This document shows positions 5,460-42,645 of a DNA stretch of 64,000 nucleotides, one piece after another. How positions within the stretch are numbered: position 1 is the stretch's first letter; every line of letters starts with the position of its first letter. The notes beneath the pieces are model-generated. The model was not told where the DNA came from and did not search any database. It worked only from the letters and a program-made list of their open reading frames with translations. Both the position numbers and the translations under genes were made by a program. Source of the stretch: Rhizophagus irregularis (Eukaryota > Glomeromycota > Glomeromycetes > Glomerales > Glomeraceae); the NCBI RefSeq assembly GCF_026210795.1, contig NC_089459.1, forward strand, positions 1,116,001-1,180,000. The letters run 5' to 3'.

Positions 5460-7295
5460 ATGCCATATGATAAAACTAGAAATAATCAAAGCGTTCAAAA
5501 AGCTCCCTATGTTCATCCTCCTCGAACCCGCAAACATATACCATATCACTGTCAGGAATGTAAAGGAAAATTAATAGATCCTAGAATGAAAAAAAAGCAT
5601 GATTCTCACTTTACAAATAGAATTATACCTCAAAGAGGATATACTAATCTGACAGAAACACCTAATGATAATCATTCACCTATTAACTTGATATCTTTTC
5701 CAAAAATCGTTATGAATATTAATAACGAAGAAGATCACGAAGAAAATCTGCAAAAAGAGAGTTATCAGTTTTTAGTAAAAAGAGCATCCATACTAGGAGT
5801 TCAAAAAAATAATAGGATGTCTACATTTACAACTCTGGAAGTAATAAACGAATTACTTTCTGATGATGACAATGTGTCAGAAGATGAAAGAAGAGAACTT
5901 GAAGATAGTAGTGTCGTAGATGAAGATATAACAAGCGAGTCAGATGAAGATTGTCAAGTTGATTTTAGCACACTAGAGATAGAAATAGACTGAGGTAAAT
6001 CTATACGTTATGAAAAAGAATCAGATGATCAATATTCATGGATTGTAATTTGGATTTTAAAATATCAAGAGAGATTCCAATTATCCAACGTAGCTACAGA
6101 TTTCCTCTTCAAATTTTTTCATTATATTCTTGTGAATATAAATGAAAATTTGTATTCTAGATTTCCCACTTCTCTTTATATGGTGCGAAAAAAACTTGGA
6201 TTTTGTGTTCATATAATAAAATATGCAGCCTGTAATAAATGTTGTAAATTATACAACATCGATGACATTTCAAGCAGTAAACCTGCTGTTGCGCCTAAAT
6301 TTACAGAATGTACATACCAAGATTTTTCTGACCACCCAATAAGCAATAAAAGAAATCCTTGTGGCGCAACTTTATATAAGAACGTCTATACAAAAGATGG
6401 TGTAATCAAAAAACCGGCTCTGATATTTCCTACAATTAGCTTGAAGCATCAATTAAGCATTCTATTCAAACGAAAAGGGTTTGAAGAATCTTGCAGGAAA
6501 TGAGTTAATCGTCCATCAGATCCAGAAATACTTGCTGATGTATACGATGGTAAAGTGTGGAAATCTTTTAACGATGAAAATGGGTCACAATTTTTTCGGC
6601 CAAATTCATCAGACACTCACCTTGGAATAATGCTTAGTATGGATTAGTTCCAACCCTTTGAAAATTCGCAGTTCAGTACGGGAGCAATCTATGCCATTAT
6701 TTGCAATCTATCTCAAGACGAAAGATTCAAACTGGCAAATATATTGACTTTAGCAATGATACCAGGTCCAACCAAACCAAAACTGCATCAACTAAACCAT
6801 TATCTAGCTCCTTTAGTTGATCAATTAATTGAATTATGGCAGGGTATAGAATTGGAAACATTTGAATATCCTAACGGAAAAATTGTTAAAGGAGCTGTCA
6901 TATGTTGTTCATGTAATATACCTGCAGCAAGAAAACTTTGTGGATATATTTCTGCAAGGGTTGCATGTCACCGGTGTCTTAAACAGGCAAATTATGATGG
7001 AAACCAGCCGAATTTTGGAGGATTTTCTGATATGGATAGCTGGTTTATAGAAAGAGATGTTAAAGAAATTTAAAAAAATGCTATTGCCTGGAAAAATTGC
7101 AAAACAGAAGAGCAACGTTGGGCCCATGTATCAGAAACCTTGGTACGGTGGTCTGAAATGCATCGTTTACTTTACTTTAATCCTGTACGTTTCCTTGTCA
7201 TAGATCTAATGCATTACCTTTTCCTCGGCATTGCTAGATGGATCGTGACAAGATTATGGATTAAAGAAGGAAAGTTGTTGTCATAAGACCTCTTA
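5460..7295 (+). pseudogene. tnp2-type (CACTA/Plavaka-like) transposase, 5' half
   Basis: The frame starts at ATG 5460. It opens with a C2H2-like finger (CQECKG...HDSH, residues about 33-52) and an acidic tract (SDDDNVSEDERRELEDSS). Further frames (6132-6503, about 6504-6650, 6744-7286) give the tnp2 core: a stretch equivalent to MDWFQPFENSQFSTGAIY, then PGPTKPKLHQLNHYLAPLVD, a Cys-containing block (CCSCNIPAARKLCGY...CHRC) and the catalytic-looking VIDLMHYLFLGIARW near 7200. TGA at 6501 and TAG at 6645 replace Trp codons and TAA at 7071 replaces an expected Gln. The gene is cut at 7312 by the 7313-16610 element and continues at 16617. Joining across with one AT removed keeps the frame. Confidence 0.8.
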
Positions 7296-22800: not shown

Positions 22801-25063
22801 GATAGTGGGATATTGTCTCAACAACAATGATCAATTTTCATGTATTAGTTAAGATTTTCTTTGTTATAGATTTCTTTGTATATTTTTTGTATAGCGTCAT
22901 TATCTTTATTATAATTTTTCTTTCAAATTAAAAAAAAATTGTATTGGTTTAACTTTACTCTAGCCTGAATTTTTTGGGAGCTTCAAAAAAGTTTGGAGTT
23001 TCATTTAATGCAAAATATAACTGCTGATTCTCATGTTCTAACATTTCCAAGATTGCAGATTTTTGTGAATTCTCATGTCCCCCATCTTTTAATGTGTTTT
23101 GAAAATAAAGACATACTTGCATATGGTTTTTTTTTTCAACAGCTGAACATGAAAAGGCAGCCAACCCAAATTCCTGATGAATTTCAAGAAATTCTCCTAC
23201 ATGATTTACCAATACGTGAATATATGGTGTAACATCTTGAGTACGATACATTCCTCTAACAAAGTTATTCTTGTTAGGGTGGCCTGTGGAAGGGGCTAAG
23301 AATGCATCCAACCACGCTTGAGATTCATGGCAAAATATTTTTTTTGTTGTTGTTTTATTCTGCATTAATAAATACAATTTATAAAACTGGTTCCATAATG
23401 CACGAATTTGTTCAGCTCGTGTTTTTGATTGAAAAACAGCTGAAAGATCAAATTCTTTTAAAATCTTTAATTTATCAGGGCCCATTAACGAAGTATATGA
23501 TAAGTTATTATTGGTTTTTTCACGCCAAAAGTAAAATGATATTTTAAGCCTTTGCATTTCTGATAAAATTTTTATTTTCCAGATTTCTTCATCTCTAGTT
23601 TCACGTTGAAGATCTGAAAGCATCAACTCCCATAATCTGTCTGTGATTCGCAAAAAAACGTGCAACTCATCACATACCCAATTTTTTAATGGTATCATAT
23701 GGAATAATGGTTCTTTTACATGACCGTTAGTTTGATTATAGTTCTTTTTGATATTATCCATTGATTTATTTATTGTTTTGGATTTGATATTTATTTCATC
23801 TTTTCTACAATCGCACCATGGACAGAAATACTGTGCATTAGCAGCCTTTATCCCTAAACAGATTGCCAAAAACTTCCAATCAGAACTAAAGTACAGTTCT
23901 ACTGGCCAGTGATTACCACCTATTTGATTAAAACCATTTTTTTTTAAATTACAGAGATCAGAGATTAAAGGAACTAAAACATTTTTAAGAGATTCATATG
24001 TTTCAGCACCTGGGTATAGGACTAATGTGTAATAATTTTCCAGTTTTTGTAATCCACTCAAATTATTTAACAATGTCATTACTATCATTACATGCTTTAC
24101 TTTTCGACCAACGTTCCTTCCATCTCCTGAAATTCGAATGTGTAAAGTTGAAACTTCAGGAATCAAAATTTCTTGCTTTACATATGATGGAACAATATAA
24201 TTCAAAATATCTGTTACACGTCTCTGCCCTCCTTTTCCAATTGATTCTAGTATATTTGTAATGATTATATTATCAGTGATATCTGGCTCTTCTGTAATTG
24301 GATCAAAAACAGTTGGTTGTGATAAATTAACAAGAGTTAAAGGAATCACTTTCTTCATTTCTGAATTTATTCTTTGCCGGGCATCGGATACTGCACCTTC
24401 ACGTGGAATGTTTGGTTTAATTCGTGCTAAAGATCGATATGCTTCTCTCGAAATATAACCTTTATCCAAAGATTTAACTACTGCTTCAATTTTTTTTATT
24501 TCTTTCATTTTATCCAGCTGTCCAAAGTTAATCTCATATAAACCATTGCAAGTTTTAAATTTTATCTGATTAAGTTCTATTTGATCAGTTGGATGAAATT
24601 TGTTTTCCTTTTCCGCTTCAACAATATCCAAAATATGCTGTGATAAACTTAACATTTTACGGCGTTTTGTAGAATAGCTAAGTTCACTAAATGGACGAAT
24701 CCTAGAATTGATTTTTAAAGGTCTTGTTTTACGCTCTTTTTCAATACTAAGTAACTTAAGGCCAAAAAGTAAAGGACCTGATATTTTCCCTTTATTTGTA
24801 GTATTTTAATCTTTCATTAATTCCTGATTATTTAATTAATTATTTAAGCATTTAGTATTATGGTAAGAGAAAATTAGCCATACTAAAAACAAATATACTT
24901 GGTAGTATTTGCAAGCAGCATCTGTTGAGGTTTCTAAAGAATATACTTCTCTTGAAAAATTTGTTCCAAAGCGAATTCTAAATAAAGGTTTTGCTTCTAC
25001 ATATTTAATTGAACATTCAACTGTATGTTTTTTTGTATGCTGAGTTTCGATGATGTACTCGTG

Positions 25064-26924
25064 AGCATAGCGGACATGCTCATATCACATTACCGATCAT
25101 TTGCTGATCACTAATTCCAGATTTTAAAAACTTATTGCAAAATCACAAATATTTTTCAAATTATGTGGCAAAAAAATAATGGAAATCTAAGTAAAAACAC
25201 TAAATTATCATATGACTTTAATTATGTAATTATTAGACAATTTTTAATAATATCATAAAAATATTATTTGTATATGGTAATTCACTAATTATTGCCGATC
25301 ATCAGACAAAAATTGAAGTGCGAAGATGAATATGTGAGTGCGAAACTTAAGAATTTGCACAAATATTCTTTATATTATGTAGAATATATAAAAAAAATAA
25401 TGCAGTGATCTGATTCATAATGCAGGTTTTTTATTAGTAACATAATTAGTGAATAATTTCGTAAAATGAATAAATATATGCCAAATAATAATAAAATCTA
25501 ATGAAATTTAATACACAATAAATTAAAACTAAATTTAAGTTATTTGTGAAATTTGAACATATTAATTATTATGTAGATTTTTTTAGCAACGGTATTTATA
25601 TTATGTGATAATTGAATAAATGATCGGCAAATGATCGACAAATGATCAGTCAGTATTGTGACTAGGGAAACGGGAACCGTTGTAAGTCCAGAGCAATAAG
25701 TCGTTTCGTCACCCAAAAGCTGCCTAAAATCTGCAACTAAAGAAACAAACAAAATATTAGCAGACGTTACATTTTGTTAAAAATAAAAAAAAAGACAAAG
25801 AAAAAATATTTAAACACATACCGTAATGCATTTATGGAGAACCGGATTTCCAACCTTACCGAAATTCATGTCCATAGATATTTGAAGAAACTGTCTAAAA
25901 AAAAGTAATAAAACAAAATGTTACTAGTAAAAGTTTCGTTATTTTGTTAAAACAAATAACAAAGTAAAAAAAATATCTTACCTAAATCTAACGCGTCCAG
26001 ATGACTCTAAAAAAGTGGAAGATGAAATATTAGCAAACATTTCGCTAAAAGAATTGATTTAAGTAAAAAGAATACTTCACTTACCAAAATATATGTCCCA
26101 AGAGACTCAAAGAATCACCTACAAAAGAAAAAAAGAAAAGAACTATTAGTAACATTTCATTAAAAGAAAAATAAAAAAAAAAGTCTGAAAGGGCCAAGTT
26201 TACACCAAAATTTATTCATAAAAAACCATTTTTTCTTGGCGCTGCTGGTAACTTTCAGTATTTTGTTTTAAACATCAACCATCTAAAAAAAGAGAAAAAT
26301 TGAATGTTAACAATGCTTTGTTAGAATAAATAAATTCGAAAAAATACATTTGCAGATGTTAAAATACCTTAAGTTTATGTATCAAGGCAAAGGGCAAGAA
26401 ACAATGCCTAAAAAAGAAAAAAATGTTAAAAACCGGTTAAATCAAGATAAAAAAATTAAAGAAAAAAAAAATGAAAACCTGAAATATTACGCTCAAGGAA
26501 ACTAAACACCAGAAAAAGTGAGAGAAGTAAGGGGAAGGGTAAGACGAAGGAAATAGGAAAGTACTTTTTTTTTTCATGTGACTTATTTGTTTGATTATTG
26601 ATCTTATCAGATGTGATACGCGGAGTAACGCGACGCGACAAAATTTTTTCAAATACGGGGTCTTTTTTTTTTTATATAATGAACATGATACATTTTGCTT
26701 TATCAAGTAATCAAGGACATTGCATACAATGTTACTAAAAATAAAAAGTATAAAGGGAAATAAGCAGGGGCATTATGTTTCAAAAAGGAAATTGTGGTAA
26801 TGACGTAGGTGGAAGGAAGGAAAAATTACATGGGTTAAACCGGTACTACAAATTTATCTAGTTCCGTACAATAAATAGTCCTTCGCTACGCTCCGGACAA
26901 TAAAATAGGGATGTCCGCTATGCT
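25064..26924. mobile_element. TIR element with 9-bp target duplication (copy 1)
   Basis: The ends are AGCATAGCGGACATGCTC at the left and (complement) AGCATAGCGGACATCCCTAT at the right. The flanks are GTACTCGTG (25055-25063) and GTACCCGTG (26925-26933), a 9-bp duplication with one change. Subterminal GATCATTTGCnGATCA motifs match copy 2 (48204-52592), and the two distinguishable ends (GCT-type, CCC-type) are arranged in opposite orientation to that copy. No coding of its own is left; most of the interior is a Helentron-like insertion at 25662-26900. It interrupts the 22955-27080 gene. Confidence 0.85.
25662..26900 (-). mobile_element. Helentron-like non-autonomous element with spliced-looking interior
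   Basis: Minus-strand 5' end TTGTCCGGAGCGTAGCGAAG, 3' end GGTTCCCGTTTCCCTAG, hairpin AACGG-TTC-CCGTT just before CTAG. Compared with copy 2 of the surrounding element (CCCTATTTTATCACAA), it sits exactly between TTTTA and TCACAA with nothing duplicated. GTCCGGAGC at the start and GCTCTGGAC near the end are asymmetric inverted repeats. The interior reads as several short exon-like segments on the minus strand, bounded by TTTTTTAG and GTAAG/GTATnTT (for example near 26400, 26110, 26000, 25900, 25740). No Rep/helicase frame is visible. Confidence 0.55.
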
Positions 26925-29844: not shown

Positions 29845-30757
29845 ATGATTCAAATCCGCCCATATGTTGATGAAAGAGAAAATCAGGGGATCTCAGTACT
29901 AGCCTGGTATAATCGTCAAAATATTACTTTTTGTGAGAATAACAATAATCCTGACAATTATTTACACACTTATTTAAGGATCATTTCTGTAATCCCTTCA
30001 GAATCAGTCAATGGAAACATCAACTGCGAAATAGGAAACAAAAACAAGGTGAAACAATTTAAGAATATATCGCAGCAATTACAGAATTATGGAAAAGAGT
30101 AAATTTCACTGATAAATGAATGGAATTGGATAAAATTCATGAATTTATCAAAGGTTTAAGACCTGAATTTGTTGTACCTGTACAATCTGCTATGCCTCAA
30201 ATAGTAGAAGAAGCAATGGAAAAAACACAGGCATTAGAAACTGCTTTTTCAATGGGAATGAATTTATCAGTCTATCAATGATGCCAGGATATTTACAAAA
30301 TATGAATGGAGGAATGATTTCTGTTCGAACTAACTTAGCCATGTATTAACCTGCCTATTCAATGAGTTATTCCTAACCAGAAAGTGTAAAAAAGATAGTT
30401 GAACGAAAAATCAGTGAAGGAATTACTGCAGCATTAAGCCAAATGTACACAGAAACTAAACCAACCAACCCTACTCCAAATAATAACAACAATAATAATC
30501 AAAACAAAAATAATTCAAGATGTTATGTCTGTAGAAGAACTAGACATATCGTGAAAAACTGTCGTCAAAGAAATAACCAGCAAAATAATAATAACCGTAA
30601 TAATAATGGAAGAGATTTAAGAAATGTTGATTGTTACAATTGTGGTAGGAAAGGACATATTTTTAAGAACTGCAGGTCACCATCATCAAACAATAATAAA
30701 AGTAATAATAATGGAACTAATAATGGTTTCCAAAGTAACAGTCGTTTAAACTACTAA
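29845..30757 (+). pseudogene. gag: Ty3 gag with two CCHC knuckles
   Basis: Capsid-like sequence runs through changing frames: EYIAAITELWKRVNFTDK near 30070, then TGA (30117) for Arg, then ELDKIHEFIKGLRPEFVVPV near 30125. A linker with TAA at 30347 and 30374 (Gln expected) follows. An Asn-rich region carries two zinc knuckles, CYVCRRTRHIVKNC (C-x2-C-x4-H-x4-C) and CYNCGRKGHIFKNC. It would package element RNA into particles; this copy is broken. Confidence 0.8.
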
Positions 30758-30822
30758 ATGCATCTCTAGAGGGGGAGAGTGCGAATTTCAGAAAGTCCTC
30801 TAATAAAAATAGTGCAAAAAGA

Positions 30823-31305
30823 GTGAATTGGAAGGACCTATTAGAAGAAATCAGACCTATTGAAAAGCCAATTCAACTGTTAAAAAGACCTATATATGTT
30901 CTTAACATCTTATATAATAATTTTAGAATTTATTTATCAAAACAACTACAAAAAAACAAAACAATGTATAATTTATGGCAAGTAGAAGGAGGAAAAGTAG
31001 AAAATCGTGAAACTTCTCTTCAAGCTGTGCTTAAAGAAACAAAGGAAGAAACAGCACTAGATATTAAGAAAGATGAATGCATATTTTATTCAACGATCCA
31101 GCTTTTAATTGTGATGTATATTTAACTAAAGTACCTGATTATCAAGAGTTACAGCGAACTGAACCTGAAAAACAAGGAGCTTGGACAATTACTTCTTTCA
31201 AACAATTACAATTTATGGAGAAATATAATGAATTAATCCCAACACTAGTTAATTATTGTACTAATATTCTTAACCAATTAATTAGAGAAGAACCAGCATA
31301 TCTTA
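30823..31305 (+). pseudogene. Nudix-like domain inside the Ty3 polyprotein
   Basis: After PIQLLKRPIYVLNILYNN and NKTMYNLWQVEGGKVENRET comes SLQAVLKETKEETAL. This matches the Nudix box spacing (G-x5-E-x7-R-E-U-x-E-E-x-G-U), with Lys for Arg and Ala for the second Gly. A frame change at about 31080 leads to NDPAFNCDVYLTKVPDYQEL and EKQGAWTITSFKQLQFMEKY, which completes the fold's C-terminal part. Nudix enzymes hydrolyse nucleoside-diphosphate-linked substrates. The two degenerate box residues suggest this copy is inactive. It lies between the CCHC knuckles and the protease in the same orientation and looks like part of the same polyprotein. Confidence 0.7.
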
Positions 31306-31320
31306 ATCAAAAAGAAAGAG

Positions 31321-31978
31321 CTAAAGAAGCCTTATATGGAGAAGTGATTGTATATGGACAACCTGTTAATGTTTTAATAGATTCAGGAGCTGTAGGTTGT
31401 ATTATTTCTAAAAGATTCCTAGACAAAGTCAATAAAGGAATTGAATTACCTACAAATATTAAAATCATTGATGTAACAGGATAAAAATTATCACCACTAG
31501 GAATGGTTCAGCAAGTTCCAGTACAAATGAGAAATATTAAAGTCTATATTAATATGATAGTCACAAACTCAGCTAAATATAATGTTCTGCTTGGTAATGA
31601 ATGGTTAAAAAAGGTTAATACAAACATCGATTATGAACAGAATGCTATTACCATTAAATATGAGGGAATTCAATAACAAATTCCTGTCACATACTATTCA
31701 CAAAAATTGGACCCAGCAAAATATACAATTATTGACCCATGCCAGTAGATGAACTAAAATTAGAAAATGAGTTAGAAGACATCATAGCAGTTCTATTTTA
31801 TAAGACAGAAATAATCGAAAGTACTTTTCAAATCAATGATCAGGAATATCATCCAGGGTATTTGGAATATATTAAGCAACAAAGTCACAATAATACTGGC
31901 GTAATTAATAGTAAAGAGCCAGGAAAATGCCTATGTAAAACCTTAGGAGATCAAGAATTTGTGATAATTGTCAAATAG
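31321..31978 (+). pseudogene. Retropepsin-like aspartic protease
   Basis: GEVIVYGQPVNVLIDSGAVG contains the catalytic DSG, followed by CIISKRFLDKV. Downstream NVLLGNEWLKKVN gives the ILG-like second motif. TAA at 31482 and 31674 replace Gln codons, and the frame changes near 31740. It would process the polyprotein. Confidence 0.75.
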
Positions 31979-32044
31979 TTCAAGAAGATTGGAATATTTA
32001 TCACATGATGCAAGAATCAGAAAATCCAAATGTATTTAATATTT

Positions 32045-33204
32045 AACTAGACCAGAAAAAGTTGTACCAATTGGAAAATTAGAGGAAAGTCAATATCAAT
32101 TGCTTTATCAATTATTGGATAAAAATAAAGACTTATTCACTAAATCATTGCAAGAGTTAAAACAAATTCCAGAAGGGAACATATTATTATCACTGAAGAA
32201 GTGCCACCTATCAAAAAGCAAGCTTATAGGACAGCACCAAAGGAAAATGAATTTATTGAGAGTGAAATTAATGACATGTTAGAACAAGGGTTAATAAAAC
32301 CTTCAACTAGCCCCTGGTCATTTCCAGTAGTAGTAGCGAAAAAGAAGAATAGAAAACTTAGGTTTTGCGTTAATTATAAACCTCTTAACGATATTACGAA
32401 AAAAAATAATTACCTGTGATGCACAATGGTTCACCACTTTAGATTTAGCATCAGGGTATTGGCAAATAAAAGTAAGGGCAGAAGACCAGAAAAAAACAGC
32501 CTTTATCACAAAATTTGAAATATACGAATTCAAGGTTATGCCTTTTGGACTTTGTAATGCACCTGTGACATTTCAGCGAACTATGGATAAAGTTTTACAT
32601 GGGATAAAAGAAAAGTTTGTTTTAGTTTACCTTGATGATGTCATTATATATTCAAAAACTTTTAAAGATCATATTTAACATTTAGAAGAAGTTCTGAATA
32701 GAATTCGTAAGGCAAATCTAAGATCAAAAGCAGAGAAATGACATTTTGCAGCAGCTGAACTTCAATTTTTAGAACATGTTGTAGGAAAAGAAGGTGTTAA
32801 ATCTGATCCAGAAAAAGTCAATAAAATGGTTAATTACCCAGAGCCTCAAAATATTAGAGAATTGTGCGGAGTCCTAGGATTATTCTCTTATTATTGATGC
32901 TTCATCAAAGATTTTGCTAAAGTTGCTGATCTAATGTACAAGTTATTAAAAAAAGATGCACTCTATGAATGGACAAATTTACAACAGAAAGCATTTGAGA
33001 ATTTAAGAGATAAATTAATGACAGCACCTATTGTACAATATCCAGATTTCTTAAAACCTTTCTTTTTATATACTGACGCTTCAATTATAGGACTAGGTGT
33101 AATACTTGCACAGAAAACTGATGATCAAGAGCATATTAGTCGAACTTTAATACCTGCGGAAAAGAATTATACCATCACAGAACTGGAATGCCTTGCGATC
33201 ACTG
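32045..33204 (+). pseudogene. pol: Ty3 reverse transcriptase and start of RNase H
   Basis: Successive frames give ESEINDMLEQGLIKPSTSPW, FPVVVAKKKNRKLRFCVNYK, FTTLDLASGYWQIKVRAEDQ, MPFGLCNAPVTFQRTMDKV and the active-site VLVYLDDVIIYSK (YLDD). A short deletion follows KPLNDITKK, between the VNYK and DLASGY blocks (about 32410). Then come the tether and RNase H opening FFLYTDASIIGLGVILAQ and NYTITELECLAI, where the insertion at 33205 begins. TGA at 32895 replaces an Arg of the usual YYRRFI. Confidence 0.88.
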
Positions 33205-33679
33205 GTCAGAATAGTCCATTTTGTCTAAATTTCAAATTGATGAATATTGGACGAAAGTTGGTCTAAATTTGGCCAATCATTGCCAAAAAAAATTGTCAAA
33301 ATTATTATGGATGATTTGCACAGTTCGCCTGCCATTTGGCAATCACAAATCAGCAAAAATTTATTAAAAATTGGAAATAAACTATTCGTCAACCTTTTAC
33401 TAGACATTCGTCCAAATTTCAAATTGCTGAATGTTGGACGAAATTAAGTCTAATTTTGTCTAATTGTTAATGATTATATTTTATTATTTCGCTTTATTAA
33501 AATTACACATTAAAAATTATCATATTAAATATCTAATATCTACAGTATCTGTCTATTTACACCTACCATCTACCATCCACCATCCACCATTCACCATTCA
33601 CTATTCACCATTCATTGTCAACTATCATCAACCACCATCAACCATTGTTCACATCTCAAAATTATCTACGACTTACTCT

Positions 33680-35390
33680 ATCTGACGAAAGTCTGAAAGA
33701 GAAACTTACAAAAAAAAAATAAAAAACGGTTAGTAAACCGTTATTATTTCAATAAAAAAAAGTCAAAGTTTTGAAGATTCAAAACCTACCTATTCAATAG
33801 AAGTCCGAAAGAAAATTTACAAAAAAAACATAAAGAAACAGTTAGTAAACCGATTCTTTAATAAAAAAATTTATATTTTGAAACTTATCTAACCAAAAAT
33901 TCGAAGTGAAAACCTACAAAAAAAAAGAAGAAATGATTAGTTAAAGTTTCTTCAAAAAAAAAATAATTTTGAAATATAAAACTTACCCAATCTGTTCAAT
34001 ATAAGTTCAAAGTGAAAACCTACAAAAAAAGGAAAGAAATGATTAGTTTTTTATTAAAAAAGTTTTGAAAAGAAAGTGAAATTTCAAAACTCACCTATCC
34101 AAAGCCCAATAACTGAAAGCTGAAATTTACAAAATAGAAAAAAGAAATAATTAAAAAAATGTTTTTTTTTTAAAGTTTCAAAGTTTACTTCGAAACTTAC
34201 CCATATATCCAAAGCCCAAAAACTGAAAGTCGAATCTACAAAATAGAAAAATAAATTTAAAATAAATTTAAAAAAAAAATATTTTTTTTTAAAAAAAAGC
34301 TTCGAAGTTTTCACTTCAAAACTCACCCATATATCCAAAATCCATGAACCGAAATCTATAAAATAGAAAAAAGAAACAGTTAAAAAAATATTTCTTTTAA
34401 AAAGTTTCGAAGATTTTACTCCAAAATTCACCTGTATATTCAACATCCAAAAACCAAAGGCCAAACCTACAAAATAGAAGAAAAAAAATTAAAATATTTT
34501 TTTAAAAAAAAGTTTTGAAGTTTTATTTCAAAACTCACCCATATATCCAACATCCAATAAACGAAAGCCGAAACCTACAAAATTGAAGATAAAAAATTAT
34601 AAACATTAAAAAAAATTATTTTTTTTTAAAAAGGTTTCGAAGTTTTAACTTCAAAACTCACCTGTATATTCAAAGCCTAAGAAACAAAAGCCAAAACCTA
34701 CAAAATTGAAGATAAAAAATTAAAAACATTAAAAAAAATTATTTTTTTAAAAAAAGTTTCGAAGTTTTAACTTTGAAACCTACCTATATATCCAATGCCC
34801 AAGAACTGAAAAAAACCTACAAAATAGAAGAAAGATACAATTAAAAAAAAAATTTGTTTAAAAAAAGTATAAAAATTCGTACCTACGAATCTTTGAGTAT
34901 TCTGTTTTTTGGAATCCCACCTGAGACACCTGAGACCTAAAAAAAAAAAAATAGAAAAAGAACGGTTAGAAACTGTTTACAATATTAAAATAAAAAATAA
35001 AAAATCAAGATTTATAGTTACTTACGAATCTTGATTTTTCGTTGTTCTTCAAAACTCGAAAGCCCACTGAACCTATAAAAAATAAAAGAAAAAGAACGGT
35101 TAATAACTGTTCATAATATTAAAAAATAAACAAAAAAAAAGATAACCAAGTTTTAAACTTACAAAACTTAGTTTTTTCCATTCTTCAGAAGTCACCCGAG
35201 AGCCAAACCTAAAAAAAAAGTAAAAAAGAACGGTTATTAGTATAACTGTTCATATTTTATTAAAAAAAAACAAAAAAAAATCCAAAGAATTCATACTTAC
35301 GAATCTTTGGATTTTTGTACTTCAGAAGTCCACCCGAGTACTGAAACTAAAAAAAAAAAGTAAAAAAGAACGGTTAGTATTAACTGTTTA
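33680..35390 (-). repeat. Tandem exon-like repeat array C
   Basis: On the minus strand about 15 units of about 100-130 bp succeed each other. Each has a pyrimidine tract ending TATAG/TTTAG, a 35-50 nt segment, and GTAAGT/GTGAG. The four units nearest 35390 resemble array D (segments like TTCAGTGGGCTTTCGAG, with AACGGTTA...TAACTGTT-type palindromes in the intron-like part). The others carry a different segment (CTTTTGGGCTTTGGATATAT-like). Segment lengths are not kept in multiples of three. No continuous protein is visible, so a spliced non-coding RNA or a purely structural repeat are both possible. Confidence 0.75.
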
Positions 35391-35580
35391 TATTTTATTA
35401 AAAAAAAGGGATGAAAAAAAGTGAAAGAGGAAAGGGGAAGGTAAAAGGAAGGGAAAAGGGAAGGAAGGAAAGGAAGGGAAATGAGAACGAAGGAAGGGAA
35501 AGTAGAAGAAGAGAAAAAGGAAGAAGGAAAAGGAGAGGGAAAGAAAGAAATTAAAAAAGTTTAAAAAAGGATGCATTAGA
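35391..35580 (+). repeat. Purine-rich tract next to array C
   Basis: A GGAAGG/GAAAAGG-rich strand. It is the inverted relative of the pyrimidine tract at 38420-38580 next to array D (both preceded by TTTAAAAAAGGATG or its complement), so each array starts from the same leader. Confidence 0.8.
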
Positions 35581-35607
35581 AATTCTTTTTTATACGTGTA
35601 TCATGTA

Positions 35608-36931
35608 CAGATGGTGATCAAAAGTATACGGACATTTTAATTTGCCAAAATTATGCCGATCATCACGTGATGACGTAATATAAACAATACGTCATTTAAC
35701 GCCTTATATCATAATAAAAACCTCCCCAATGTTTTTTTTTTAGTAAACATTCACCAAATATGTTCTAAGCTCACCCCAAAAACCCGATATGCGATTATTT
35801 ATGGTTATAATTGTGGACAATCGGGCCGTTTAATTGCAGAACACTTGGGGTGTAGTAAAACTGCTGTTTATGATGTACTTAAACATTTTCGTGAAACTGG
35901 CTCTTTCACACCAAAAAAAAAAATCAGGTCGCCCTCCACTCTTTGACTCACCAGCACGACAAGAACTCAAAGCTTTTGTTAAAGAAAATGGTGAAAATCG
36001 TCGACTTTGTTCAAAAAAGCTTGCAACTGTTTGGACAGCTCGTAAAAAGCAACCTATTTCTGTGTGTACCATACGCCGAAACCTCAAAAAGGTTGGACTT
36101 AGTGCCTGTATTCCCCGTCATAAACCTGCAATGACAGAAGCACATCGTCAGGCTCGTCTTGAATGGGCATTCTTGCACACGAGATTGGACAACAAGAAAA
36201 TGGAGAAGAGTGCTTTTTTCAGATGAAAGCACTTTTACACAATTTCAGAAAGGTCGTCAGGGGAAGGGTTTGGCGTGAACCAGGAGAAGAATTGAATCCT
36301 GATTGTATTGCAGTTACCGTTAAACACAGTCCTAGCAGAATGTTTTGGGGGTTGTTTCTCCATGGCGGGCTTGGACCAATTGTTCCGTTAAAAGGCTCAG
36401 TTACAGGTCAAACTCATGCTAAAATTATTCAAAACTATGTTGTACCTACTTTGGATGAGCATTTTCCACAGGGTAATGGAATTTTTCAAGAAGACAATGC
36501 TCCACCACATCGTTCAAAAGTCGCTAAGGCCACCCGTGAAGATGCCAAAATTGTGGAGCTTCAATGGCCAGCAGCAAAGCCCCGATTTGAACCCCATAGA
36601 GAACATGTGGGCAGAAATGAAAGCAATGGTGCATCGACGTCGACCCACCACCATCTAATATCAAAGTACTTGAGAAATATGTTAAAGATGCGTGGGATGA
36701 TATTCCTCCAGAATATTATAAAAAATTAATTGATAGCATGCCACAGAGAATTGAGGCAGTTATTGCTGCAAATGGATATAGTATTAATTATTAATATATA
36801 ATTTTTTTTACATAAAATTAATAAAGGACAATCAGATTAATATATTTACTTAATAAATTTTATTTTTATTATATTATTTTATATGAAATTTTTATTTTAA
36901 AAAATGTCCGCATACTTTTGATCACCATCTG
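35608..36931 (+). mobile_element. Tc1/mariner transposon
   Basis: The terminal repeats CAGATGGTGATCAAAAGTAT and the complementary ATACTTTTGATCACCATCTG are flanked by TA (35606-35607, 36932-36933). Length 1324 bp with one transposase gene, standard for Tc1. It is inserted next to array C and is the least worn element in the region. Confidence 0.93.
35761..36794 (+). pseudogene. Tc1-type DD34E transposase
   Basis: An N-terminal helix-turn-helix (SGRLIAEHLGCSKTAVYDVL) is followed by GRPPLFDSPARQELKAFVKE and the second HTH region. The catalytic domain has FSDESTFTQFQKGRQGK (first Asp), FQEDNAPPHRS (second Asp) and SPDLNPIENMWAEMKAM (Glu). It ends IEAVIAANGYSINY at 36794. Frameshifts near 35922, 36220, 36580 and 36650 and the lack of an in-frame ATG upstream of 35761 inactivate it. 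Confidence 0.9.
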
Positions 36932-37180
36932 TAACATGTAACATTTAATTAGTAACATAATTCAATCATAGATCATCGAATATAGGCCAATTTGTATTAA
37001 GGCTGGTCGATTTATGGTTTTTTTTTATGTTACAACTCAACCAAAAATCAACCAAAAATCAACCAGTTGATTTATACCAAATTTTTCCAATTTTTGTAAT
37101 TAACCGAATGTGTGACGAATTATGTGATCGATTTGCCGAATTATTGCCGAAAGGTCTTATTGATAAAATAAATGATTTTG

Positions 37181-38229
37181 TGACATTATCTTTATGGAAG
37201 TAAATTCATCATCATCACTGACCATGCAGCACTCAAGTGGTTACTAAATTCAACAACGGAAAATAATAATAAAAGATTAGAAAGATGAAAGATTGCTTTA
37301 TCAGAATATAAATATGACATTGTATATCGAAAAGAAACTAAACATGCGAATGCTGATGCATTCTTTTATCTTGACTCAACCTCAACTAATAATCACACCA
37401 ATCCTTCAATCTCACATAACAATCATGAATGAACAACTATACAATGAATTAATATTATTTTTAACAACTCTTACTTTTATGGACAGCATAACTGATAAAC
37501 GGAAAACCCAAATTCAGAAAAACTCAATCCAATATATTTATCAAAATAATATTTTATTTAGGAAAACAAAGGATGGTATAAGAAAAGTAATTCTACGTGA
37601 ACAAGTAGAACCCATTTTATATCACTTTCATACAAATATGAGCGGTGCTCATTTAGGAATAGACGCTATAATTGGAAAATCAAAGATCAATATTATTGGC
37701 CACAATTAGGAGAAAATGTAAAAGAATATATAAGAACTTGTGATATTTGTCAAAGAAGAAGACCTATTAATCGGCGAGAAGAACTGATACCAATATTGGT
37801 TAAGGGACTATTTCATAGGATAGAAATTGACATTAAAGGACCATTACCGATCACTAGTAGTGAAAATAGATATATTATCATCGCCATGGATTATTTTACA
37901 AAATGGCTGAAAGAAAGAGTAATACCCAATATTAAAGCAGAAACAGTAGCTAAATTTATTTATGAAGAAATTATTTGTAGACATGGAGTTCTACAAGAAA
38001 TTCTATCAGATAGAGGAACATCATTTATAAATAAATTAATTGATGAATTATGCGAAAATTATCAAACTAAATATTGTCTTACATCAGCTTATAAGCCTTA
38101 AACAAATGGAATGGTTGAAAAATTTAATCGAACAATTGGTGAATGTATTGCAAAATTAGTTCAAGATAATAATAAGGAATGAGATCAATTAATCGATGCA
38201 GTACTTTTAGCGTATCGAACAAAGAAGCA
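37181..38229 (+). pseudogene. pol: Ty3 RNase H end and integrase
   Basis: RNase H resumes with FIIITDHAALKWLL and EYKYDIVYRKETKHANADA; TGA at 37287 replaces Trp. The integrase zinc module follows: HFHTNMSGAHLGIDA and TCDICQRRRPINRREE, an H-H-C-C arrangement spread over two frames. The catalytic core gives RIEIDIKGPLPITSSENRYI (Asp) with YFTKWLKERVIPNIKAE, then EILSDRGTSFINKL (Asp) and NGMVEKFNRTIGECI (Glu). TAA at about 38099 and TGA at 38180 interrupt. Ends at AYRTKKH, where insertion 2 starts. Confidence 0.88.
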
Positions 38230-38587
38230 TCACTGGTCGAAATAAAAACTTTCGGTCATGTGACAAATTGGCTGATCTGTTACACATTTCAGCTAAATTT
38301 CAGAAATTATTAAAAATCGGCCAAATTTTGACATATATGATTTATAGTCAATTTATTGAATTATTTAATCAAATGTTACGTGTTATGCATTACGCATATT
38401 AAAAGTTTAAAAAAGAATCATCTTATACATCCTTTTTTAAACTTTTTTTAATTTTTTTCTTCCCCTTCCCTTTCCTTTCCTTCATTTTCCTTCCCTGTTT
38501 CTTCTTCTTCCCCTTTTCCTTCCTTTATTCTCCTTTCCCTTCCTTCCCCTTCCCCCTTCCCCTTTCACTTTTTTACTTTTTTTTTAT

Positions 38588-41500
38588 AGGTTCAGCTTTT
38601 GGGTAGACTTTCAAAGTACAGAAACTCCAAAGATTTGTAAGTACAAATTCTTTGAAGTTTATTTTATTTTTTTTTAATATGAACGGTTACTAACTGTTTT
38701 TTTTTTCTTTTTTTTAGATTTGGCCATTTGAGTGGGTTTCTGAAGTACAGAAACTCCAAAGATTCGTAAGTACGAATACTTTGGAGTTTATTTTATTTTT
38801 TTTCTTTCTTTTTTTTTAGGTTTGGCCGTTCGGGTGACTTCTGAAGAATGGAAAAAACCAAGTTTCGTAAGTTCAGAACTTGGTTTATTTTTTTTTTAAT
38901 ATTATGAATGGTTATTAACCATTCTTTTTCTTTTATTTTTTATAGGTTCAGCATTTCAGGTAGGTCTTCCAAGTTCTGAAGAACGAAAAAAACCAAGATT
39001 CGTAAATATATACGAATCTTGGTTTTAATTTTTTTGTTTTTTTAATTTTATTAATGAATGGTTACTAATAATCATTCCTTTCTTTATTTTTTAGATTCGG
39101 GTGGGCTTTTGAAGAATGAAAACCTAAAGATAAAGATTCGTAAGTACAAATCTTTATAATTTTTTTTTATCATTTTAGAATGGTTACTAATAACTGTTCC
39201 TTTCTTTATTTTTTAGGTTTGGATGGGCTTCTAAAGAACGAAAATCCAAAGATAAAGATTCGTAAGTACAAATCTTTACTTTATAATTTTTTTTTTGTTT
39301 TATTAATCATTTTGGAACGGTTACTAATAACCGTTCCTTTCTTTATTTTTTTAGGTGCGGTAGACTTCTGACGAACAAAAACCCAAAGATAAAGATTTGT
39401 AAATACGAATCTTTATAATTTTTTTTTTGTTTTTTCTTTATTATGAACGATTACTAATAACCGTTCTTTTCTTTATTTTTTAGGTTCAGTGGGCTTCTGA
39501 AGAACAAAAACCCAAAGATTAAGATTTGTAAGTACAAATCTTCATAATTTTTTTTTGTTTTTTCTTTATTACAAACAGTTACTAATAACCGTTCTTTTCT
39601 TTATTTTTTTAAGTGTAGTGGACTTCCAACAAACGAAAACTCAAAAATAAAGATTTGTAAATACGAATCTTTATATACAGTATATATATATTTTTATTTT
39701 TTTTATCATTTTGGAATGGTTTATTAACCGTTCTTTTCTTTATTTTTTTAGGTGCAGTGGGCTTTTGACGAACGAAAACCCAAAGATAAAGATTTGTAAG
39801 TACGAATCTTCATAATTTTTTTTTTGTTTTTTTTTATCATTTAGAACAGTTACTAATAACCGTTTCTTTCTTTATTTTTTAGGTTTGGTGGGCTTCTGAA
39901 GAACAAAAACCCAAAGATAAAGATTCGTAAGTACAAATTTTTACTTTATAATTTTTTTTGTTTTTTTAATCATTTTGAAACGGTTACTAATAACCGTTCC
40001 TTTCTTTGTTTTTTTAGGTGCGGTGGCTTCTGACGAACGAAAACTCAAAGATAAAGATTCGTAAGTACGAATCTTTATATATATATATTTATTTTTTTTT
40101 TGTTTTTCCTTTATTACAAATGGTTTATTAACCATTTCCTTTCTTATTTTTTTAGGTTTGGTAGACTTCGATGAACGAAAACTCAAAGATTCGTAAGTAC
40201 TAGTACGATTCTTTACTTTTTTTTTTTTTTTAATTTTATTAATGAACAGTTACTAATAACTGTCCTTTTCTTTTTTATAGGTTCGGGTAGACTTAAGAAT
40301 GGAAAAAGGAGAACCTTTAAGATTTGTAAGTAATATACTTACGAATTTTTTTTTTAATATTATGGAACAGTTACTAACTGTTCCTTTGATTTTTTTTATA
40401 GGTTCAGGTAGATTTCCGTCTTTCTAAGGAACAGAAAAAACTAAAGATTCAGTATGAATCTTTATTTTTTTATTTTTGTTTATTATTACGAATGGTTTCT
40501 AACCATTCTTTTTCTTTTTTTTTAGGTCAGTGTCTTCTGAAGAATGGAAAAAACCAAAATTCGTAAATACGAATCTTGGTTTTATTTTTATTTTTTTTTT
40601 ATAATATTAACGAATGGTTACTGATAACCGTTCTTATTTTATTTTTTTTAGGTTCAGTGGGCTTCTGAAGAACAATGGAAAACCAAGATTCGTAAGTAAG
40701 TACGAATCTTGGTTTTTTTTTTATTTTTTATTTTTATTTTTTATTACTACTACGAACAGTTTACTAATAACCGTTCTTTCCTTTTTGTAGGTTTTGGAAT
40801 CTTTAGAAAAAGTAAAACCAAGATTCGTAAGAGGCGTGCCAGAAATCAGCTGATTTGAAAGGGGTGGGCTTCAGATCAGGTCTATATATATCACGTGACA
40901 TTTATATATCTAAAGTAATTTAATTATTTTTATATATAATTACTATAATGCAATTATCTTGACTTCTAGTGATTTAATTTTAATAAACTTTTTTTTTAAT
41001 TTATAGCTCTCATTTAGCTCTACAAATCTAACTTTACAAAATAAAAAAAGTTTGTTTAAATTGAATCACTAGAAGCCAAGATAATTGTATTTACATTATA
41101 ATAATTATTATAATGCAATTATCTTGACTTCTAGTAATCCAATTTTAATAAACTTTTTTTTATTTTATAGCTCTCATTTAATTCTACAAATATAGCTTTA
41201 AAAAACAAAAAAAGTTTGTTCAAATTGAATTACTAGAAGCCAAGATAATTGAATTTATTTATATTATAATAATTATTATAATGCAATTATTTTAACTTCT
41301 AGTGATCCAATTTTAATAAACTTTTTTTTTTAATTTATAGCACTCATTTAGCTTTAAAAGTCTAGCTTTACAAAACAAAAAAAAGTTTGTTCAAATTGAA
41401 TTACTAGAAGCTAAAATAATTATATAATACTAATTATTATATATAATATTTAATATTTAATACTAGTAATAATTTTTTTAGCCAATCAGATTTCAATCAG

Positions 41501-41810
41501 GTGGGGGTGGGGGTTAAAGCTACTAATTGAGAGAAATCAGCTGATTTCTGGCATGCCCCTAAGTACGAATCTTGGTTTATTTTTTATTTTTTTTTATTAT
41601 TATAAATGGTTATTAATAATCGCTCTTTTTTTTTCTTTTTTATAGGTTTGGCGTTTCGAGTGGGTTCTAATAAACAGAAAAAACCAAAGATTCGTAAGTA
41701 GAATCTTGGGGTTTTTTGCTTTTTTTTAATATTATGAAACGGTTACTAACCATTCTTTTTTTTTTTATAGTTTCAGTGGGTTTCCAAAAGATCAAGATTT
41801 GTAAGTATAT
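38588..41810 (+). repeat. Tandem exon-like repeat array D with hairpin splice signals
   Basis: After a pyrimidine leader (38420-38587) about 20 units of 105-140 bp follow. The unit layout is TTTTTTATAG or TTTTTTTAG, then a 44-56 nt segment (GGTGGGCTTCTGAAGAACGA then AAACCCAAAGATAAAGATTC), then GTAAGTAC, an AT spacer, AACGGTTACTAATAACCGTT and a pyrimidine run. The donor lies at the tip of a hairpin (AAAGATTCGTA, AG, TACGAATCTTT). The branch-like CTAA lies in the loop of AACGGTTA/TAACCGTT. Stems vary with matching changes (AATGG/CCATT at 38907, 40118 and 40490; AACAG/CTGTT at 40243 and 40365). Segment lengths of 44, 45, 47, 48 and 56 rule out a conserved reading frame. One unit is split by the element at 40831-41559. 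Confidence 0.82.
40831..41559. mobile_element. PIF/Harbinger-type MITE (TAA-flanked)
   Basis: The ends are GAGGCGTGCCAGAAATCAGC and the complementary GGGGCATGCCAGAAATCAGC. TAA is duplicated (40828-40830, 41560-41562); the undisturbed array unit reads CGTAAGTACG, confirming the insertion point. The interior has three tandem palindromes of about 155 bp (starting near 40948, 41115, 41280), each opening CAATTATCTTGACTTCTAGT and closing with its inverse. A related copy is at 56296-57184. Confidence 0.8.
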
Positions 41811-42184
41811 ATGAATACATGAATTATGTGATTGTGGAATTGTAGATTAGCAATACTTATTTGTAATATGAATTTATAAATAAAGTTGTAATTTTATTGC
41901 GAATATCAAATAAAATGAGTTGTAGCTGAATATTAGTAAATAAATTTAGTACAAATTTGCAACATAAATTAAGTAACATTCAGAAAACTATTCACCAAAA
42001 TTTGCTATCTGAAATTGTTTCGAATGTTAACTGAATTTTGGCTGAAATTTCAAGCTGAACTTTAGGCGAGTGGCAGCGAATAGCAGCCAAAAAATTGGCT
42101 AAAGTTCAGCTAGCATTAGATCATAAATCAGCCTAAAATCAGCTGGCTGAATTTTGGCCAATTTGAATTATTTATCATTCACGC

Positions 42185-42645
42185 ATAACACTACAGCAGA
42201 AAAAACACCATTTTATTTAACTTATGGACGAGAAGCAACTTTACCAATTGATTTAAAAATTCCATCTCAAATATCTCAAAGTAAAAAGGATCTAATGCAA
42301 AGATGAATTTATCAGTTAATAGTTGAATTAGAAGAAGAATGAAATAATATTTCGTTAAAAATTGAAAAAGAACAAGCGAAGTAAAAACAAGTATATGATC
42401 AACAAGGAATTTCAGAAAAATTAAAAATAGGAGATCAATTCTTAATAAAACGAATGTGACTTAAAAATAATTTCTCAGCAAAATTAGAAAATAAGTGGAT
42501 AGGACCTTATTTTATTCATGAAGTACTTAATGATAATGTTTATAAACTTAGAAATTTAGATGGAAAACTAGTTAAACATGTAATTCATGGAAATAGACTT
42601 AAGAAATATCATGAACAAAAGTTGGAACCAATAGTTATAATTTGA
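42185..42645 (+). pseudogene. pol: Ty3 integrase C-terminal part
   Basis: TTAEKTPFYLTYGREATLPI is the conserved end of the integrase core region. It is followed by a charged helix region and KIGDQFLIKRM.LKNNFSAK, KWIGPYFIHEVLNDNVYKLR (the GPY/F module) and VIHGNRLKKYHEQKLEPIVI. TAA at 42382 (Gln) and TGA at 42457 (Trp) break it. Confidence 0.85.

Follow-up and report, generated by a model that had tools for sequence, protein, structure and literature searches.

Arrays of exon-intron-like units as putative splicing-competent, non-coding cargo of a CACTA-type transposon family in Rhizophagus irregularis

Inverted CACTA-type termini together with 3-bp target duplications are the terminal signature of CACTA (EnSpm/CMC) elements. 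In the fungus Rhizophagus irregularis, CMC-EnSpm and Plavaka are among the transposon superfamilies with expressed families (PMC11075540), and the main text of that paper, in the part consulted, has no word beginning with 'intron' or 'splic'. Introners, as described in the part consulted of PMC9860276, are mobile, repetitive sequences that carry spliceosomal signals and, in some cases, terminal inverted repeats (TIRs) and target site duplications (TSDs). The present analysis concerns a stretch of 64,000 nucleotides (nt) of R. irregularis DNA, called the window (NC_089459.1 of assembly GCF_026210795.1; C31:1116001-1180000 in a genome of 146.7 Mb and 32 contigs), and a CACTA-type transposon on its plus strand at 38231..42182, with the left end CACTGGTC and an approximate right boundary, that belongs to a family named F1 here. 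The interior of F1 is made up of as many as about 20 exon-intron-like units in tandem. The signals in these units lead us to propose, with a probability of about 0.5, that the array is a mobile, non-coding, splicing-competent cargo of a non-autonomous CACTA-type family, and that its design is kept in source elements.

F1 resembles the non-autonomous CACTA/CMC/EnSpm elements in its CACTG termini, inverted ends, 3-bp target duplication and many dispersed copies, and differs from them in its unit-filled interior, where a transposase was not found. With introners, as far as the portion consulted describes them, it shares mobility, repetitiveness, spliceosomal signals, TIRs and TSDs; an introner, however, is one intron inserted in a gene, whereas F1 holds many introns and exons. 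The ends of F1 (CACTGGTC/GACCAGTG) are not those of one genic intron with its two splice sites, and its splice signals are internal and multiple. No described element of this design was found in the open-access literature, which was the scope searched, in agreement with a preliminary description made from the letters of the window, and F1 is classed here among the non-autonomous CACTA-type transposons, its cargo being of a new kind.

The window array (38588-41806) consists of 20 units, each standing after a pyrimidine tract and AG, as the preliminary description had read it. Nineteen of them have a donor (GTAAGT, GTAAAT or GTAAG), and the unit at 40450 has kept its hairpin and lost its donor. 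The signals follow one order: pyrimidine tract and AG, exon, GTAAGT or GTAAAT donor, T-rich intron, and a branch point, which reads TTACTAAT, TTACTAAC or TTATTAAC in the window. Eighteen units, one of them the unit without a donor, lie in the first part of the array (38588..40831, +), and the final two in the second part (41560..41806, +), with the final donor at 41801. The parser recovered 18 of the 20. Two of the measures first given need correction: the parsed exons of the window are 30-56 nt long, not 44-56 nt, and the branch-point A of the hairpins stands 23-31 nt before the next AG, not 20-25 nt, with three additional TTATTAA words at 40-50 nt from AG. Across the family, 326 units were parsed by donor, tract and acceptor, with the signals ordered at a spacing plausible for spliceosomal introns. 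Their exons leave a remainder of 0, 1 or 2 on division by three in 149, 53 and 124 cases, so lengths that are not multiples of three are common, as had been remarked.

The host transposon was delimited through its dispersed copies. The conserved left end (38231..38460, +) has at least 40 strong genome matches of 84-93% identity, besides 10 weak partial ones, the conserved right end (41830..42173, +) at least 40 of 84-95% identity, the window itself being excluded in both cases, and the units at least 317; of the 146, 58 and 395 candidates retrieved with the left end, with the right end and with two units, respectively, the best 40 were scored in each case. Immediately 5' of the first acceptor lies a C/T-rich tract (38460..38586, +), which may be a promoter region to judge by its sequence. 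The right end of the window copy holds TTGTAG at 41840 and AATAAA at 41879, and its inverted end is degenerate. Left and right ends form 29 pairs on the same strand, spaced 615-10,977 bp apart (median 3042). The left end reads exactly CACTGGTC in 28 of 36 cases and the right end exactly GACCAGTG in 6 of 8 other copies. A 3-bp target duplication flanks six of the seven copies readable on both sides (TAT, TAC, AGT, ATC, CAA, AAG), the seventh reading ATA/TAA; the left flank of an eighth copy, M20, is too short to be scored. By its termini and target duplications, F1 is a CACTA-type family. The genome search also bears out the suspected association of the unit with CACTGGTC-ended insertions, these being a transposon family with 3-bp target duplications.

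Subject to the unread interiors of the 5973- and 10,977-bp copies, F1 looks non-autonomous. Transposase_21 has at least 155 matches in the genome (best 150 of 393 candidates scored), and among the matches listed none was seen by eye within a paired F1 element, the nearest noted (C29:1606992-1607471) lying 690 bp outside one. In a 7.0-kb copy (C9:2556823-2563865), open reading frames (ORFs) without a Pfam match were considered as a gene of the element and rejected; array units come after them, and they are read as a nested insertion. An ORF fragment at 6648-7073 of the window matches Transposase_21 (E 7.7e-10) and is possibly a relative of the enzyme that moves CACTA-type elements.

The array is a regular internal cargo of the F1 family. 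Of 38 regions parsed (37 merged regions and the window element), 37 contained units, with 303 distinct exons among the 326, and one had none. When left ends were fetched independently of the array, 29 of 30 had parsed units within the stretch read. One order of exon lengths is common to many copies (47, 47/48, 47/48, 56, n x 44/45, 48, 37, 39, 36, 48, 30), and other copies, such as M23, follow another order. The number of 44/45-nt units differs between copies, as expected from tandem duplication and loss.

The position of the array inside the element also bears on the idea, offered earlier, that the array hides the transposon by being spliced out. This does not fit, since the array lies between the element ends, and these would both stay in the RNA after its units were spliced. 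That the whole insertion is spliced out so that a host gene survives, a camouflage of the introner kind, is extremely improbable. The first strong signal in the element is indeed an acceptor and the last a donor, but such removal needs an outer donor on the left and an outer acceptor on the right; by eye, no donor like GTAAGT, GTGAGT or GTAAAT is present in 38231-38587, and the right side offers only the weak TTGTAG at 41840. Moreover, the window copy lies in a retrotransposon. It sits inside an ORF that stops at about 38230 and continues past 42182 (by eye), of an element called Ty3-like here by eye, with no family search, from gag-, reverse-transcriptase- and integrase-like ORFs at about 30377-38230, resuming past 42182.

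The coding potential of the exons was assessed in 28 runs of at least five consecutive units. Once the exons are joined, the longest stretch without a stop takes up 0.714 of the length, as compared to 0.732 after randomisation of the phase, and the antisense strand is as open as the sense strand or more open in 25 of the 28 runs. The exons seem stop-poor through their composition, and they carry no reading frame. The product would therefore be non-coding if the units are spliced, as the preliminary description had supposed. Many tiny exons are also a feature of aphid BICYCLE genes, and R. irregularis itself has genes with repeats. These SP7-like genes of Rhizophagus, in the part consulted of PMC11333574, have hydrophilic tandem repeats and one conserved intron before the first repeat. 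Both BICYCLE and SP7-like genes code for secreted proteins, in contrast to the frameless exons of F1; an SP7-like effector gene was considered on account of these repeat-bearing genes in the same fungus and was dropped because the exons are frameless.

A related explanation is that the array descends from a micro-exon protein gene, whose exons of 45 or 48 nt coded for repeats of 15-16 residues (such as FGWASEERKPKDKDS) and whose frames were lost after capture by a transposon. The commonest exon lengths do include 45 (63 of 326), 48 (45) and 39 (19), all multiples of three, GWASE-like peptides can be read in frames of the 45-nt and of the 47/48-nt exons, and three of the 28 runs exceed their phase-randomised counterparts in openness (p 0.02 or less). 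Yet exons of 47 (60 of 326), 44 (34), 37 (13) and 56 nt (15) are also common and shared between copies, and the 28 runs taken together are no more open than phase-randomised exons. Database proteins can be read in both directions. The translated spliced array retrieved 6 database proteins, and one of those retrieved 102 similar proteins (P0001-P0103 in all), which count in favour of a former gene as well as of the proposed cargo; all 101 that are named are from R. irregularis, the remaining one being an unnamed JGI protein, and this speaks against the former gene. One of the 102, OCT59_019420, was traced to an element at C29:234178-237002 and is taken as a product of gene prediction. On this evidence a decayed protein gene appears unlikely as the origin of the array.

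The proposal of a splicing-competent cargo draws further on arrays elsewhere. Nine other loci (L002, L003, L071-L077) and the window at 25700-26560 (-) show the same succession of signals around exons that differ. Also compared was a second, diverged insertion in the same Ty3-like element (33200..37183, -; CACTGGTC end at 33200, other end approximate, boundaries by eye), with a minus-strand array at about 35420-33670. The branch-point hairpin GGAACGNTACTAACGTTCC has 78 plus 67 genome matches with one mismatch allowed, against 0 for the backwards pattern, although palindromic sites may be counted on both strands. L071, L072, L073, L075, L076 and L077 were fetched by the hairpin pattern, L074 and L075 via similar words, and L002 and L003 by a stem-free pattern; the second insertion and 25700-26560 were met by position. 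A branch-point hairpin is thus partly expected at the loci picked through the hairpin pattern, and because of this choice our confidence in the proposal was lowered and two of its rivals were raised slightly. The exon parse at L071 yielded two units only.

The L073 array (C8:4784500-4786600) is enclosed in an element whose 127-bp inverted repeat (79% identity) starts with TAAGGGTTTTGTC. This is a different kind of transposon from the CACTGGTC family, and arrays are therefore cargo of at least two transposon kinds. L074 adjoins TTTTGACCAGTG ends, and inverted ends sought at L071, L072 and L075 were not found. At L002, L074 and L075, purine-rich stretches left of the array look by eye like units of the opposite strand, and two divergent arrays seem to be present. 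The third window array, 25700-26560 (-), has exon-intron-like units with branch points such as GAAATGTTTGCTAATATTTC, and stands upstream of a 616-residue ORF (22955-24805, -) without a Pfam match.

Both splice signals occur in hairpins in the window array, as exemplified by the 5' splice-site hairpin at 39132..39155 (+; AAAGATTC / GTAAGTACAAATCTTT) and the branch-point hairpin at 39314..39337 (+; GGAACGGTTA-CTAA-TAACCGTTCC). The window holds 12 hairpin-borne branch-point/acceptor sites, 9 of them in the array, as compared to 0 in the reversed sequence. When centring in a stem of at least 6 bp was scored, the narrow branch-point motif was centred in 10 of 20 cases in the window array, in 9 of 12 at L071 and in 20 of 211 outside arrays; GTAAGT in 7 of 15 in the window array against 1 of 31 outside; and GTAAAT in 3 of 4 against 11 of 112. 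With the wide branch-point motif, the proportion was 5/7 at L074, 7/10 at L072, 4/5 at L002, 3/7 at L076, 3/7 at L075, 2/7 at L073, 1/5 at L077, 1/3 at L003, 3/11 in the distal array of the second insertion and 1/8 in the third window array, as compared to 37/509 outside. Centred donors number 3 of 49 across the other ten arrays, and donor-like words outside 7 of 93. The placing of signals at hairpin tips that had been described thus stands for many units above background, though not for every intron of the array: at least one, 38766-38819, has neither a clear branch-point word nor a branch-point hairpin.

Stem scores plotted by distance give a similar pattern. In 8 of 14 array segments (two of the window's family, L002, L003, L071, L072, L077 and L076) the score reaches its maximum at the branch point; it is high there without being maximal at L074 and L075, and L073 has no branch-point peak. 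A peak centred on the donor is present only in the window's family, L003 and L071. In the family, donor stems have a mean score of 10.98, as compared to 8.81 when introns are swapped between units, which leaves the relatedness of the units in place, and 5.96 when the intron is shuffled; the loops of these hairpins range from GTAA to GTAAGTAATATACTTAC, and the stem is constant. Folding of the RNA of 11 chosen units gave z values of -2.2 to -4.0 in eight and of -0.1 to -0.5 in three (L072, L076 and the distal array of the second insertion), and the predicted fold is without the expected donor stem in two of four window units. Rfam gave no match up to E 0.5 in 33000-42600. The branch-point hairpin is accordingly present in many arrays and the donor hairpin in fewer, most loci having been picked by hairpin.

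In plant CACTA elements, subterminal repeats are the binding sites of transposase or accessory proteins. A function at the level of DNA was therefore weighed, in which such proteins bind the palindromes and the likeness to splice words is incidental or of secondary importance. In favour of this role, a CACTA-type element here holds near-perfect DNA palindromes in many repeats. The array is, however, internal and not subterminal, the succession of donor, branch point, tract and AG is found again where the exons are unrelated, and the same signal order is found in the long-TIR element of L073, which should use another transposase. We regard a role in DNA binding as improbable.

Evidence for selection on pairing was sought in 321 branch-point stems of the window's family. 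CG is present on both sides in 152, and a single pair-breaking CpG change in 74 (left CG/right CA 40; left CA/right CG 34). Stems that are doubly changed and still paired number 27 against 15.0 expected by shuffling when all 321 rows are counted (p 0.0006), but 12 against 8.3 among 75 distinct hairpins (p 0.08). Position -4 of the donor stem has A-T in 139 and T-A in 33 and neither A-A nor T-T, possibly through one inherited event, and position -1 gives a Fisher p of 0.15. The paired stem changes pointed out in the preliminary description do exist, but they are a minority and most changes are single CpG transitions; its expectation that pairing is selected is not upheld within the family, and covariation there was dropped as proof of selected pairing. 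In a comparison between arrays (11 examples), both sides differ at five of seven stem positions, with two mismatches at the outermost pair. These examples were hand-picked as well formed, with that of the third window array excluded and the pair table anchored on the hairpin core, and so indicate that stems differ between arrays and not how often. The comparison suggests, without proving, that the hairpin design is kept in source elements.

The same data bear on an ordinary satellite, in which template-switch (quasi-palindrome) mutation has perfected hairpins round near-palindromic words (TTACTAA, GTAAGTAC). Both splice words are partly self-complementary, present copies decay neutrally and the stems show little compensation within the family, all of which speaks for a satellite. 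Outside arrays, however, the same words are seldom at a stem centre (the 37 of 509 branch-point-like and 7 of 93 donor-like words above), and a satellite need not keep a donor and an acceptor unit after unit, nor a fixed order of exon lengths. This explanation, too, is judged improbable.

Several observations weigh against a splicing-competent cargo. The donor loses G+1 and C-1 in a ratio of 30:53, the same proportion as exonic CpGs (73:142, p 0.79), and loss of G+1 is not significantly below that of its stem partner (27:26, p 0.11). The decay of donors is that of CpGs elsewhere, and present copies consequently show no selection on splicing; once inserted, single copies decay freely. Wobble-preserving (G-U) changes are no more frequent than those that disrupt pairing (branch-point left TG 31, CA 39; right TG 26, CA 48). 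Among the hairpins, centred GTAAGT stems are 0 of 11 at L071 under strict centring, though the stem-score profile peaks there, and segments that were not picked by hairpin (the third window array and the two of the second insertion) have no branch-point peak. An exon-exon junction in the genome, as a trace of reverse-transcribed spliced RNA, gave 0 matches with up to two mismatches for the one junction type tested. The gene model of OCT59_019420 has several joints at the expected sites and others at weak donors that keep the frame open (codons read by eye), and spliced gene models were dropped as proof of splicing. The copy C29:1094337-1094951 is too short for an array, and 33 bases at the start of its left end are missing as well. 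Lastly, a transposase was not found inside F1 elements, the 5973- and 10,977-bp copies being unread inside.

If the array is nevertheless a splicing-competent cargo, its life cycle may be pictured as follows. Enzymes of the Transposase_21 type, abundant in the genome, would move F1 elements in trans. Transcription would start in the C/T-rich left region, each intron (mostly 75-100 nt, with its signals in place) would be removed to leave a non-coding chain of 30-56-nt exons, and polyadenylation would occur near the AATAAA of the right end. F1 source elements would present both branch point and donor in hairpins, and other array families often the branch point and seldom the donor. Once inserted, copies decay without constraint, and the number of units would shift by tandem duplication and loss. 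In the weakest step, which we hold to be doubtful, serial strong introns would tie the transcript to the spliceosome, mimic a host gene and shield the transcript from nuclear small-RNA silencing, a system that we take to be expanded in R. irregularis.

The parallels for such shielding come from other organisms. In Cryptococcus, transposon transcripts that are poorly spliced become targets of small RNAs through SCANR (PMC5851062, in the part consulted), and in Caenorhabditis elegans the work on Aquarius/EMB-4, likewise in the part consulted, presents introns as a barrier to nuclear RNA interference (PMC5554785). For the function of F1 these cases of intron-dependent silencing offer an analogy only, and the reliance of the shielding step on it counts against that step. 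The sequence fits equally well with the opposite role, in which hairpins hold up splicing and invite silencing. It is unlikely that the idea extends to its widest form, in which several kinds of R. irregularis DNA transposon share a cargo of long arrays of non-coding micro-exons and structured introns, hairpins offer branch points and donors to the spliceosome, and the transcript, loaded with spliceosomes, guards the source element against small-RNA silencing.

Other insertions have reshaped the neighbourhood of the array. A nested inverted-repeat insertion of 728 bp (40832..41559, +), with the ends AGGCGTGCCAGAAATCAGCTGATTT / AAATCAGCTGATTTCTGGCATGCCCC, TAAG on both sides and three internal tandem repeats of 164 bp, landed in a donor hairpin and split the window array; by eye, a sequence resembling it seems to recur between array units at L077. 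The second insertion is interrupted by a Tc1/mariner-type element (35608-36931) with inverted ends beginning CAGATGGTGATCAAAAGTAT. The ORFs of the latter, 35834-36226 (HTH_Tnp_Tc3_2) and 36163-36729, lie in two different frames; they were considered as the transposase of the array element and rejected, as they are flanked by inverted ends of their own.

If the units are spliced, F1 and its like would stand for a large class of mobile non-coding genes that lies hidden in a major plant symbiont, and would be one explanation for part of its 'unclassified' repeats and for some of its 'hypothetical proteins'; 102 database proteins resemble spliced F1 arrays. Such arrays would also provide a natural, highly repeated test bed for the effects of hairpins on splicing and for the protection of transposons by introns. 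Should the protective reading be true, it would amount to a splicing-based survival strategy of DNA transposons. Even as neutral cargo, the arrays are a warning to annotators that spliced gene models over them need not be proteins.

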